Part shown: one piece after another, positions 10,710 through 14,394 of the stretch
Layout of the letters: the number at the start of each line of letters is the position of its first letter
How positions within the stretch are numbered: the stretch's first letter is position 1
NCBI RefSeq assembly: GCF_900603025.1
Contig: NZ_LR026975.1
Location: 5,146,001-5,210,000 of the forward strand
Source: Mycolicibacterium hassiacum DSM 44199
GTDB taxonomy: Bacteria > Actinomycetota > Actinomycetes > Mycobacteriales > Mycobacteriaceae
Direction of reading: 5' to 3'
Length of the DNA stretch: 64,000 nt
Notes under the pieces: generated by a model
Database searches by the model: none
Told to the model about the DNA's origin: nothing
The model's input: the letters and a program-made list of their open reading frames with translations, nothing else
Translations under genes and position numbers: made by a program

Positions 10710-11471
10710 TCAGCTGCGCCGGTTGAACCGGGTGGCGTTGGCCTGATCGCGCGGCCGGATCACCACGAAGTCGAGGTTGACGTGCGACGGGCGGGTGGCC
10801 ACGAAGCCGATCACCTCGGCCACGTCCTCGGCCACCAGCGGCGTGACTCCCTCGTAGACCTTCGCGGCCCGCTCCTCGTCACCCTCGAAGCGGTTCAGCG
10901 AGAAGTCGGTCTTGACCATGCCGGGCGCGATCTCGGTGAGCCGCACCGGCTTTCCCAGCAGTTCGCCGCGCAGCGTGCGGTGCAGCGCGCCCTGGGCGTG
11001 CTTGGCCGAGGTGTATCCCGCACCGCCGTCATAGGTTTCGAACGCCGCGATCGAGGTGACCGTGACGATCAGCCCGTCGCCCGACTCGACCAGCTTCGGC
11101 AGCAGCGCCCGGGTGACCCGCAACGTGCCCAGCACGTTGGTCTCCCACATCCAGCGCCAGTGCTCGATGTCGGCCTCGGCGACCGGCTCGAGGCCGCGGG
11201 CTCCGCCGGCGTTGTTCACCAGTACCGAGACCGGTGCTCCGAGCTTTCCCACCTGCTCGACCAGGGCGTCGACCGACTCCTGATCTGTGACGTCGGTCAC
11301 AATGGCGGTGCCGCCGATCTCCCGCGCCAAGGCAGTGATCGGCTCGGCTCGGCGGGCCGCGCAAACGACGTGAAAACCATGGCGCGCAAGGGTTTTCGCG
11401 GTTGCTTCACCGATGCCGGCGCTGGCGCCGGTGACCACCGCCACGCGGTCGCCGGTCTTGGGTGTCGTCAT
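10710..11471 (-). CDS. Short-chain dehydrogenase/reductase, Rv0484c-type
   Basis: The 253-aa classical SDR has the nucleotide-binding TGASAGIG near residues 15-22, the structural NNAGG, a catalytic Ser in TSIAAF, and Tyr/Lys in YTSAK. It should oxidise or reduce a small alcohol/ketone with NAD(P); substrate unknown. ATG 11471 is chosen because TAAGGT (11484-11479) lies 7 nt before it. The frame stays open far upstream only as antisense of the ROK gene. It is divergent from the polycysteine leader. Confidence 0.85.
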   Translation of the reverse strand: MTTPKTGDRVAVVTGASAGIGEATAKTLARHGFHVVCAARRAEPITALAREIGGTAIVTDVTDQESVDALVEQVGKLGAPVSVLVNNAGGARGLEPVAEADIEHWRWMWETNVLGTLRVTRALLPKLVESGDGLIVTVTSIAAFETYDGGAGYTSAKHAQGALHRTLRGELLGKPVRLTEIAPGMVKTDFSLNRFEGDEERAAKVYEGVTPLVAEDVAEVIGFVATRPSHVNLDFVVIRPRDQANATRFNRRS

Positions 11472-11478
11472 ATGCCCA

Positions 11479-11500
11479 ACCTTAAACGGCGTGCTAAGTT
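11479..11500. promoter_or_regulatory. Back-to-back -10 boxes of the SDR gene and the polycysteine leader
   Basis: TAAGGT on the minus strand (11484-11479) is 7 nt from ATG 11471. TAAGTT on the plus strand (11495-11500) is 7 nt from GTG 11508. Only 10 nt separate the boxes, so the two leaderless promoters must overlap in their upstream elements. Confidence 0.6.
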
Positions 11501-11507
11501 CGTCACC

Positions 11508-11573
11508 GTGATGAGTCAGGCCGCCGCCGGTGCCGTTCGGCACTGTTGCTGTTGCTGTTGTTGTTGCGCCTAG
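11508..11573 (+). CDS. Polycysteine leader peptide (regulatory uORF)
   Basis: A 21-codon ORF starts at GTG 11508, immediately followed by ATG 11511. It ends with His, eight consecutive Cys codons, Ala and TAG (11571-11573). Five of the eight are TGT, unusual for so GC-rich a genome. The -10 TAAGTT 7 nt upstream makes it a leaderless ORF. Polycysteine leaderless ORFs are known in mycobacteria as cysteine-responsive attenuators: ribosomes stall when Cys-tRNA is scarce and so change the fold of downstream RNA. The downstream ROK gene and mshA (mycothiol, a cysteine-containing thiol) make cysteine sensing logical. Confidence 0.85.
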   Translation: MMSQAAAGAVRHCCCCCCCCA

Positions 11574-11587
11574 CGCCACGCCTGACT

Positions 11588-11660
11588 CTGTCCTGCTGAC
11601 AGTCGCCGGGTGTGGCCGGCCCCAGCCCCCCACCCCCGAACCGACCCGCAGCAAGGACAG
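11588..11660 (+). promoter_or_regulatory. Candidate attenuator: competing hairpins that hide or free the Shine-Dalgarno of the ROK gene
   Basis: CTGTCCT (11588-11594) is fully complementary to AGGACAG (11654-11660), which contains the Shine-Dalgarno just before ATG 11664. CTGTC (11588-11592) can instead pair with GACAG (11598-11602) in a short hairpin. The two pairings are mutually exclusive. The first base of the switch lies 14 nt after the leader stop, within reach of a ribosome on the Cys codons or stop. Confidence 0.6.
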
Positions 11661-11663
11661 CTC

Positions 11664-12971
11664 ATGTCGACAGCCACCATCGCCCCCACCGTTCGCAAGC
11701 TCCCCACCCGCAAGACCCCGGTTCCGGCCCGTACCCCGGTTCACGCCAAGCGCTCGCTGCTGGCGCGGCACAACGTCGTCGCCCCGGCGCTGCGGGTCGC
11801 CGACGCCGCCGCCGGCTCGGTGTTCAGCGCGGCCCGGTTGCACGGGCCGATCGCGCGCGACGCCATCGCGCAGGCCACCGGCCTGAGCATCGCCACGGTC
11901 AACCGGCAGGTCACCGCGCTGCTGGAGGCCGGGCTGCTGCGGGAGCGCGCCGACCTGGCGGTTTCCGGTGCCATCGGTCGGCCGCGGGTGCCGGTGGAGG
12001 TCAACCACGAGCCGTACCTGACGCTGGGCATCCACATCGGCGCCCGCACCACCAGCATCGTGGCCACCGACCTGTTCGGCCGCACCCTCGACGTCGTCGA
12101 GACCCCCACGCCGCGGGGCCCGCAGGCCACCGCGCTGGCCACGCTGGCCGACAGCGCCCGGCGCTACCTCGCCCGCTGGCACCGCCGCCGCCCGCTGTGG
12201 GTCGGGGTGGCCTCCGGCGGCGTCGTCGACAGCACCGCCGGTCAGATCGACCACGCCCGGCTGGGCTGGTCGGCCGCGCCGGTCGGACCCGTGCTCGCCG
12301 AGGCGCTCAACCTGCCGGTGTCGGTGGCCGCGCACGTCGACGCGATGGCCGGCGCCGAACTGCTGCTCGGGGCGCGCCGGCTGCCGGACCCCAACTCCAC
12401 CAGCCTGTACGTCTACGCCCGCGAGACCGTCGGCTTCGCCCTGTCGATCGGCGGGCGGGTGCACTCGCCGGCCAGCGGCCCCGGCACCATCGCCGCGCTG
12501 CCCGCGCAGTCCGACCTGCTCGGCGGCACCGGCCGGCTGGAGTCCACGGTCAGTGACGAGGCGGTGCTGACCGCCGCCCGCAAGGCCCGCATCATCGCGC
12601 CCGAGGGGCCGACCTCGACGATGGCCGCGCTGCTGCGCACCGCCCGCGAGGGCAATGCGGCGGCCCGCGAGCTGCTCGCCGAGCGGGCCCGGGTGCTCGG
12701 CGAGGCGGTCGCGCTGCTGCGCGACATGCTCAACCCCGACGATCTGGTGGTCGGCGGGCAGGCGTTCACCGAGTACCCCGAGGGCATCAAGCTGGTCGAG
12801 GCCGCGTTCGCCGACCGGTCGATCCTGCCGCCGCGCAAGCTGCGGGTCACCGCGTTCGGCAACCGGGTGCAGGAGGCCGGCGCCGGGGTGGTGTCGCTGG
12901 GCGGCATCTACGCCGATCCGATCGGCGCCATGCGCCGCGCCCTGAACCGCCGCCCGGAAGTCAGCGCCTGA
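11664..12971 (+). CDS. ROK family transcriptional regulator, Rv0485-type
   Basis: The 435-aa protein has a basic, disordered N-terminus, a winged HTH (about residues 55-110, with [20 protein letters not shown]) and a ROK domain containing a [19 protein letters not shown] phosphate-loop-like segment. ROK regulators bind sugars or sugar phosphates. The family zinc-binding cysteine cluster is not evident. ATG 11664 has AAGGAC at an optimal distance. Expression is probably controlled by the polycysteine leader upstream. mshA follows after 142 nt containing an inverted repeat. Confidence 0.85.
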
Positions 12972-13019: not shown

Positions 13020-13113
13020 AGTCGCGGTCTCGGCGCCCGACACCGCCGGATCAACGCGCCGGACCGGGCGGCCCTCGCCCGTCACCGCGCCGCCAAGGTG
13101 TAGACATGACGGT

Positions 13114-14394
13114 GTGCGCGCAGCCACCGATCTGCCCCGGAGAGTAGCCGTCCTGTCGGTGCACACCTCACCGCTGGCGCAACCGGGAACCGGCGACGCC
13201 GGCGGGATGAACGTCTATATCCTCCAGAGCGCCCTGCAGATGGCGCGCCGGGGTGTCGAGGTGGAGATCTTCACCCGGGCCACCTCGTCGGCCGACCCGC
13301 CGGTGGTCCAGGTGGCGCCCGGGGTGCTGGTCCGCAACGTGGTGGCCGGCCCGTTCGAGGGGCTCGACAAGTACGACCTGCCCACCCAGCTGTGCGCGTT
13401 CGCCGCCGGGGTGCTGCGCGCCGAGGCCACCCACGAACCCGGCTACTACGACATCGTGCACTCGCACTACTGGTTGTCCGGTCAGGTCGGCTGGCTGGCC
13501 CGGGACCGCTGGGCGGTGCCGCTGGTGCACACCGCGCACACCCTGGCCGCGGTCAAGAACGCCTCGCTGGCCGAGGGCGACACCCCGGAACCACCGCTGC
13601 GGGCGGTGGGGGAGCAGCAGGTCGTCGACGAGGCCGACCGCTTGATCGTCAACACCGAACATGAAGCGCAGCAACTGATCTCGTTGCACCACGCGGACCC
13701 GGACCGGATCGACGTGGTGCATCCCGGGGTGGATCTGGAGCTGTTCACCCCGGGGGATCGGGCTGCGTCGCGGGCGCTGCTGGGCCTGGACCCGAACGCG
13801 CGCGTGCTGACGTTCGTCGGCCGTATCCAGCCGCTCAAGGCGCCCGATGTGCTGCTGCGGGCGGCGGCGCGGATGCCCGACGCGCACGTCGTCGTCGTGG
13901 GTGGTCCGTCGGGCAGCGGGCTGGCCGCCCCCGACGGGCTGATCCGGCTGGCGGCCGAGCTGGGGATCTCCGAACGGGTCACGTTCCTGCCGCCGCAGCC
14001 CCGCGACCGGCTGGTGCACGTCTACCGCGCCGCCGACCTGGTCGCGGTGCCGAGCCACTCGGAGTCGTTCGGGCTGGTCGCCATCGAGGCGCAGGCGTGC
14101 GGCACCCCGGTGGTGGCCGCCGCGGTGGGCGGGCTGCCGGTGGCGGTGCGCGACGGGGTCACCGGGACCCTGGTCAACGGCCACGACATCGACGACTGGG
14201 CGCGGGCGATGACCGCGCTGCTGGCCCGCGACCCGGAAGCCCTGAGCGCCGCGGCGGTGCGGCACGCCGCGTCGTTCTCCTGGGCCCGCACCGTCGACGC
14301 GCTGCTGGCCGGCTACCGCCGGGCCATCGCCGACTACCGGGCCCGGCTGACTGTGGGACGCAACGGGCGCACCGTCACGGAGGCGAGGGCGTGA
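13114..14394 (+). CDS. mshA: D-inositol-3-phosphate glycosyltransferase, first step of mycothiol synthesis
   Basis: MshA transfers GlcNAc from UDP-GlcNAc to 1L-myo-inositol 1-phosphate in the cytosol. The 426-aa GT4 enzyme has [22 protein letters not shown] near its N-terminus (acceptor and nucleotide site), [10 protein letters not shown], and the sugar-nucleotide motif [19 protein letters not shown] with two spaced glutamates. GTG 13114 is preceded by TAGACA at 13101-13106. The stop overlaps the next gene by 4 nt. Upstream cysteine-leader control may extend to this gene. Confidence 0.95.

Follow-up and report, generated by a model that had tools for sequence, protein, structure and literature searches.

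The window, a stretch of 64,000 nucleotides from Mycolicibacterium hassiacum DSM 44199, contains a short leader open reading frame rich in cysteine codons, followed by a gene for a ROK-family regulator and by mshA. The features of this locus are (window coordinates):

11495..11500, + strand: -10-like box TAAGTT, 7 nt 5´ of the GTG start codon of the leader
11508..11573, + strand: leader open reading frame VMSQAAAGAVRHCCCCCCCCA with stop codon TAG, read directly and kept in relatives
11544..11567, + strand: run of eight Cys codons, five of them TGT
11574..11585, + strand: in-frame CGC CAC GCC TGA beyond the TAG, resembling the conserved RRA-TGA end of the leader in many relatives
11588..11598, + strand: predicted anti-Shine-Dalgarno arm CTGTCCTGCTG, from folding and from the GTC[CT] aligned in 75/90 loci
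11598..11602, + strand: GACAG, a weak alternative partner of CTGTC, seen among the loci examined only in the window and in one clade
11602..11645, + strand: predicted inner hairpin, including the conserved GGTGTGG (11609-11615), from folding and from near-invariant columns in a 79-locus alignment
11649..11660, + strand: predicted 3´ arm CAGC-A-AGGACAG containing the Shine-Dalgarno (SD) sequence AAGGA of the ROK gene (11653-11657), from folding
11664..12971, + strand: gene for a ROK-family regulator with a winged HTH (Pfam ROK, E 3.8e-16), putative ortholog of Rv0485 / Msmeg_0932
13099..13107, + strand: promoter-like motif TGTAGACAT just 5´ of mshA, of a class found in 83/86 loci
13114..14394, + strand: mshA, mycothiol glycosyltransferase (TIGR03449, E 8e-202)

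The orthology of the ROK gene to Rv0485 / Msmeg_0932 is inferred from its context, with the leader before it and mshA next, and from passages of Shell et al. (2015). Its reading frame is intact and encodes 435 aa. The leader starts with GTG at 11508, the next codon being ATG at 11511, and with the transcription start placed from the spacing of TAAGTT it appears to be leaderless. The first-pass annotation had described a leader with eight Cys codons ahead of ROK and mshA, and its coordinates were exact, as were those of CTGTCCT (11588-11594), GACAG (11598-11602), AGGACAG (11654-11660) and the ROK ATG (11664). It had also put the Cys run right at the end of the leader. The run does lie near the end, as in other mycobacterial polycysteine leaderless leaders, but it does not adjoin the stop: a single GCC (Ala) codon separates it from TAG 11571-11573. 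The start of the leader (11513-11521) is perfectly complementary to the leader end at 11580-11588 over 9 bp; complementarity of at least 6 bp between the two is seen in 53/90 loci and in 8.8% of single-base shuffles, a comparison uncorrected for kinship.

The codons of the run are, in order, TGT TGC TGT TGC TGT TGT TGT TGC. As had been pointed out, the use of five TGT codons goes against the habit of the genome, where TGT is rare (13/118 Cys codons in 38 ORFs selected from the window). The same codon makes up 2/22 Cys codons in the ROK genes of 90 loci and, with duplicates and the window counted, 289/327 codons in the runs of the 95 parsed leaders, so that the window run, with TGT 5/8, is poorer in TGT than the runs of its relatives. 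Inner positions of the run are nearly always TGT (94/95, 86/87 and 43/43, counted backwards from the second-last Cys), TGC being the usual codon. Five successive TGY codons give 18 matches in the genome, a single contig of 5.27 Mb (overlaps counted), and the reversed pattern gives 3; among the TGY-run matches, inspection found short ORFs that look leaderless at only two places, one of them the leader described here.

Conservation was assessed in 96 relative loci, namely 80 of 241 loci found, which are named records labelled Mycobacterium, Mycolicibacterium or Mycobacteriaceae, and 16 same-genus orthologs. A leader ahead of the same gene was parsed by script in 94/96; L036 has a leader with an interrupted Cys run, identified by eye, and the sequence of L029 ends too early, and both were excluded from all state counts. 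With the window included, the 95 parsed leaders comprise 90 unique loci after removal of duplicates. A set of 79 loci was made by leaving out eleven divergent ones (L052, L088-L097), picked after the leader and GTC[CT] tables had been viewed and before covariation analysis and three-state folding; GTC[CT] is missing from 8/11 of the excluded loci and from 7/79 of those kept. Two loci of Mycobacterium sp. IS-3022 (L072 and L073), about 257 kb apart on one contig, have identical leaders and intergenic stretches, and another genome, perhaps the same assembly, likewise has two ROK matches on one contig.

In all 90 unique loci, a -10-like box precedes the leader start by 6-8 nt; its sequence is TAAGTT or TAAATT in 70. 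The start codon is GTG in 81 and ATG in 9, the stop codon is TGA in 87 and TAG in 3, and the C-terminal end is RRA in 50/90. Cys runs reach a maximum of 3 codons in 41 loci, 4 in 37, 2 in 8, 5 in 3 and 8 in the window only; six successive Cys were found in one further relative, L140 (identical to L162). From the run to the stop there are 5-7 residues in 86/90 loci and a single residue in the window, where the stop comes 12 nt earlier than the conserved leader stop. A DNA search with 11480-11680 matched 69/396 genus genomes, the window's own included, the best other match being 82% over 62 query bases; this loose first-pass search found no close relative of the window's leader among the 396 genomes sampled.

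Folding supports a sequestration of the ROK SD by RNA structure in the window. Positions 11588-11598 are predicted to pair with 11649-11660 through 11 bp with a single bulged A, around the inner hairpin, and the fold of 11588-11660 has an MFE of -40.4 kcal/mol (z -5.95), more stable than 200/200 dinucleotide shuffles; for 11583-11690, z is -3.91. The proposed pairing of CTGTCCT with the ROK SD is thus borne out and is stronger than had been claimed. Standing out in the 79-locus alignment are GTC, GGTG and AAGGAC. GGTGTGG (11609-11615) hardly varies among relatives, a constancy greater than base pairing by itself would appear to need. A search of 11300-11900 against Rfam found nothing up to E 1, and no T-run was seen on inspection of 11574-11663. 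A pairing of the Cys run with GCAGCAAGGACAG (12/13 by hand count) was dropped, as the computed ensemble does not favour it.

To model the position of the leader ribosome, the RNA was masked as far as the edge of a ribosome placed either on the last Cys codon or at the stop, and the energy required to open the SD was computed. For the window, the predicted opening energy is 8.3 kcal/mol in naked RNA, 9.6 with the ribosome stalled at the last Cys and 9.3 at the TAG; a ribosome stalled at Cys does not, by these values, open the SD. Among the 90 loci, the window has the highest opening energy in the stalled state and the third highest in the stop state. Only once the modelled edge is beyond about 11590 does the energy drop below the range of 8-10 kcal/mol, and no modelled ribosome on the leader, stalled or at the TAG, covers 11588-11602. 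The SD is predicted to be closed because neither a stalled nor a terminating leader ribosome reaches the hairpin.

These values bear on two mechanisms by which a stalled ribosome might control ROK. In the first-pass annotation, stalling of a ribosome at the Cys run or stop codon selects either CTGTCCT/SD or CTGTC/GACAG pairing, such that a shortage of cysteine would raise ROK and mshA. Both pairings exist in the window, and GACAG is kept in a clade of leaders ending in ALRRS or APRRS, but the CTGTC/GACAG hairpin is computed at -3.9 kcal/mol, against -40.4 for the sequestering one, and the modelled ribosome never reaches 11588, so that we consider this choice unlikely. The other mechanism is the direct block that Canestrari and colleagues reportedly described for polycysteine leaders, in which RNA of the Cys tract helps to hide the SD and stalling of a ribosome exposes it. 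Masking the Cys tract of the window does not open its SD, and the naked-minus-stalled difference over the 79 loci is 0.48, against 0.33 in shuffles. Some ROK leaders do lean towards direct blocking. In six loci that we term slow-grower type (L088, L089, L091-L094; our own grouping, not species names), the opening energy is 3.9 naked and 1.55 stalled at the last Cys, with 3.9 and 2.7 in the shuffled control; GTC[CT] is missing in 5/6 of them and the SD is weakly held in both the stalled and stop states.

Direct blocking also fits a second polycysteine leader in the same genome. This leader, L159 (start G000:C1:3825922), encodes VSTRLEPMLTKRRAVDLCRVAGSCCCCCCSC, 31 aa with six successive Cys, and precedes a 166-aa protein without a Pfam match. 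Its SD opening energy is about 9-12 kcal/mol at first and drops to about 4 kcal/mol once the modelled edge arrives at the run's first Cys codon; it keeps that value wherever on the run, or at the stop, the ribosome is placed. L159 is accordingly predicted to behave as a direct-block switch. As an account of the ROK leader in the window, we regard direct blocking as very unlikely.

The relatives point to a different element. A GGAC lies upstream of GTC[CT] in 51/75 of the loci bearing GTC[CT] (of 90), and in 43/51 it is found 7-9 nt past the leader stop, the loop between GGAC and GTCC varying from 4 to 16 nt. In these 51 loci, GGAC is the likely competitor for the anti-SD GTCC. There is no GGAC 5-9 nt past the leader stop in the window, and because the window copy is without it, the element was missed in the reading of that sequence. 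If GGAC competes for the anti-SD, the SD should be harder to open with the ribosome at the stop than with it stalled. Over the 79 loci, the stop-minus-stalled difference in opening energy has a mean of +1.36 kcal/mol and exceeds 0.5 in 73%, compared to a mean of 0.02 and 18% in a shuffled intergenic control (948 folds). Where GGAC follows the stop by 5-9 nt (47 loci), the mean is 1.96 (89% >0.5); in the other 32 loci it is 0.48 (50% >0.5). The mean remains positive for footprints of 10-16 nt and when the loci are grouped into 26 clusters at 80% identity, of which 19 are >0.5 and 1 is < -0.5 (footprint 13). Counting all 90 loci, 65 follow the model by >0.3, 9 are opposite by >0.3 and 16 do neither.

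Of 80 held-out stretches fetched, 77 were parsed and 26 were left after removal of identical and at least 95% similar sequences, two of these (L162, L167) belonging to the already viewed ALRRS/APRRS clade. In the GGAC class, 14/16 were >0.5 with a mean of 2.20 kcal/mol, and without GGAC 4/10 were >0.5 with a mean of -0.45; overall, 18/26 were >0.5 and 5/26 < -0.5, one of those five with GGAC. All of these energies come from equilibrium folding that ignores co-transcriptional kinetics, proteins and Rho, and from loci that share ancestry. In the comparative alignment proposed on first pass, the anti-SD/SD core did not show the uncompensated pairing-breaking substitutions named there as a refutation; being nearly invariant, this core gives no covariation either. 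A tree-aware all-pairs covariation test gave no column pair at E ≤1, and double changes were few, with one 4-bp run, outside all helices discussed. Since the pairing cores are nearly invariant, the pairing is not proven by compensation.

Exceptions include the eleven loci with leaders ending in ALRRS or APRRS (two pairs having the same sequence). Opposite polarity is predicted in 9/11 (L001, L002, L026, L130-L132, L137, L138, L140), the stop state being clearly the open one in the model. This clade is without GGAC and instead has, further downstream, GACAG or, in two loci of identical sequence, GGCAG, which forms a wobble pair. Within the 79-locus alignment, one or other of these elements is seen in the window and in four ALRRS/APRRS loci, and seven further loci of the clade carry one too. 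The position of the window in a nucleotide tree of ROK is poorly supported (0.11 and 0.26), and GACAG may be shared with the clade or have arisen twice.

On balance, we favour the view that this is a mycobacterial ROK-mshA polycysteine leader that in many relatives senses whether the ribosome has halted at Cys or at the stop, and that the window copy is rewired and closed. The putatively leaderless upstream ORF would make translation of ROK depend on the progress of a ribosome. In the closed state of the relatives, GTCC would pair with the SD AGGAC, and in the open state GGAC, usually 7-9 nt past the leader stop, would pair with GTCC. A ribosome that has passed the whole Cys run and halted at the stop would cover GGAC and thereby close the SD, while one stalled at Cys would leave GGAC free and the SD open. 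The rewiring in the window would consist of the run of eight Cys codons, a stop that comes 12 nt too soon, the lack of GGAC and an unusually stable SD hairpin. Because the leader ribosome cannot reach this hairpin in the model, the window ROK is predicted to be translated at a low level, with little response to cysteine. What the analysis shows is the anatomy, the conservation and the computed energies, whereas the ribosome positions, the response to cysteine and the low expression are predictions. The intact ROK frame argues against permanent silence in the window's species and for ROK still being expressed there somehow.

It could instead be that the window copy is a decaying remnant and its leader no longer functional, as the earlier stop, the missing GGAC and the odd Cys run might suggest. 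Set against this, the promoter box, start codon, Cys codons, SD hairpin and ROK frame are all intact and the hairpin is the most closed of the 90 in the stalled state, which makes decay rather unlikely. Closure of the SD could also act on transcription, in that untranslated C-rich RNA would provoke a Rho-dependent stop, a possibility about which we are doubtful and one that is compatible with the favoured reading. The stretch before ROK is C-rich and G-poor (mean C 0.44, G 0.19 in the 73/95 parsed loci with GTGTGG; C 0.49, G 0.27 in the window), which may be mere composition. High 5´UTR-to-CDS read ratios come from a study that we take to be that of Dinan and colleagues (2014). Passages of this study place such ratios at the ROK orthologs of two species, M. 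marinum and M. bovis (PMC4128351), in keeping with Rho attenuation and also with the favoured reading.

The first-pass annotation had the leader couple cysteine supply to mycothiol synthesis. The locus does have a cysteine leader of a known kind, but its link to mycothiol is weakened because mshA has a conserved promoter-like motif of its own. In 83/86 loci with mshA in view (mshA was located in 86/90 unique loci), TGTAGACAT, TGTAAAGAT, TGTAAGTAT or a near form lies a few bases before the mshA start, compared to 0/86 in a control stretch of 120 bases within ROK; the motif was defined after inspection of the sequences upstream of mshA. Going by sequence, the motif is probably a promoter serving mshA, and any effect of the leader on mycothiol synthesis is probably partial at best.

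A switch anchored at the stop codon would, if true, explain the near-constant spacing of Cys run, stop and GGAC and would offer a clean prediction that is testable across many natural leaders. It would also mean that leaders with a common signal, cysteine, use different RNA logic in one genome. We tentatively propose that ROK polycysteine leaders of many mycobacteria tell a ribosome stalled at Cys from one terminating at the leader stop by a stop-anchored GGAC acting as anti-anti-SD, a logic distinct from the direct block at another leader in the same cell. The ALRRS/APRRS clade and the window, both without GGAC, would have flipped or locked the switch, so that a single leader family would have evolved at least three wirings. 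Natural re-wirings like the window copy would be ready-made experiments on attenuator evolution.

The kind of leader and its place are already known, and the window copy is an unusual state of a known leader. Passages of Shell et al. (2015) (PMC4633059, Fig 7B) describe small leaderless ORFs, rich in Cys, that lie upstream of Rv0485/Msmeg_0932 and are conserved between M. tuberculosis and M. smegmatis, and they speculate on attenuation. The window leader shares with these the gene, place and Cys-richness and, by prediction, the leaderless start. It differs in that its run is longer and its stop comes sooner than in the relatives studied here, and an RNA switch does not figure in those passages. 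That cysteine-responsive leaders are known in mycobacteria, as stated on first pass, agrees with this same-place leader and with Canestrari et al. (2020), which is cited in passages of PMC13236596, PMC7790235, PMC9094748 and PMC9031893 for polycysteine leaders as cysteine-responsive attenuators in M. smegmatis. Those leaders reportedly have a Cys run, as here, and are leaderless and control the downstream gene at the level of translation, as is also predicted here. An RNA switch in the ROK leader was not met with in the open-licence literature and may well be described in Canestrari et al. (2020), reportedly in Mol Microbiol 114:93.

Compared to the direct block reportedly described there, many ROK relatives fit a stop-anchored anti-anti-SD and the window copy fits neither. 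The erm and trp systems are likewise leader-ORF attenuators. Mycobacterial examples are ilvB1 and whiB7 (passages of PMC13236596). In all four, the position of a ribosome on the leader ORF picks between rival RNA pairings, as proposed here. Unlike in these systems, the closed state of the ROK leader is predicted with the ribosome at the stop, and the output is access to the SD.
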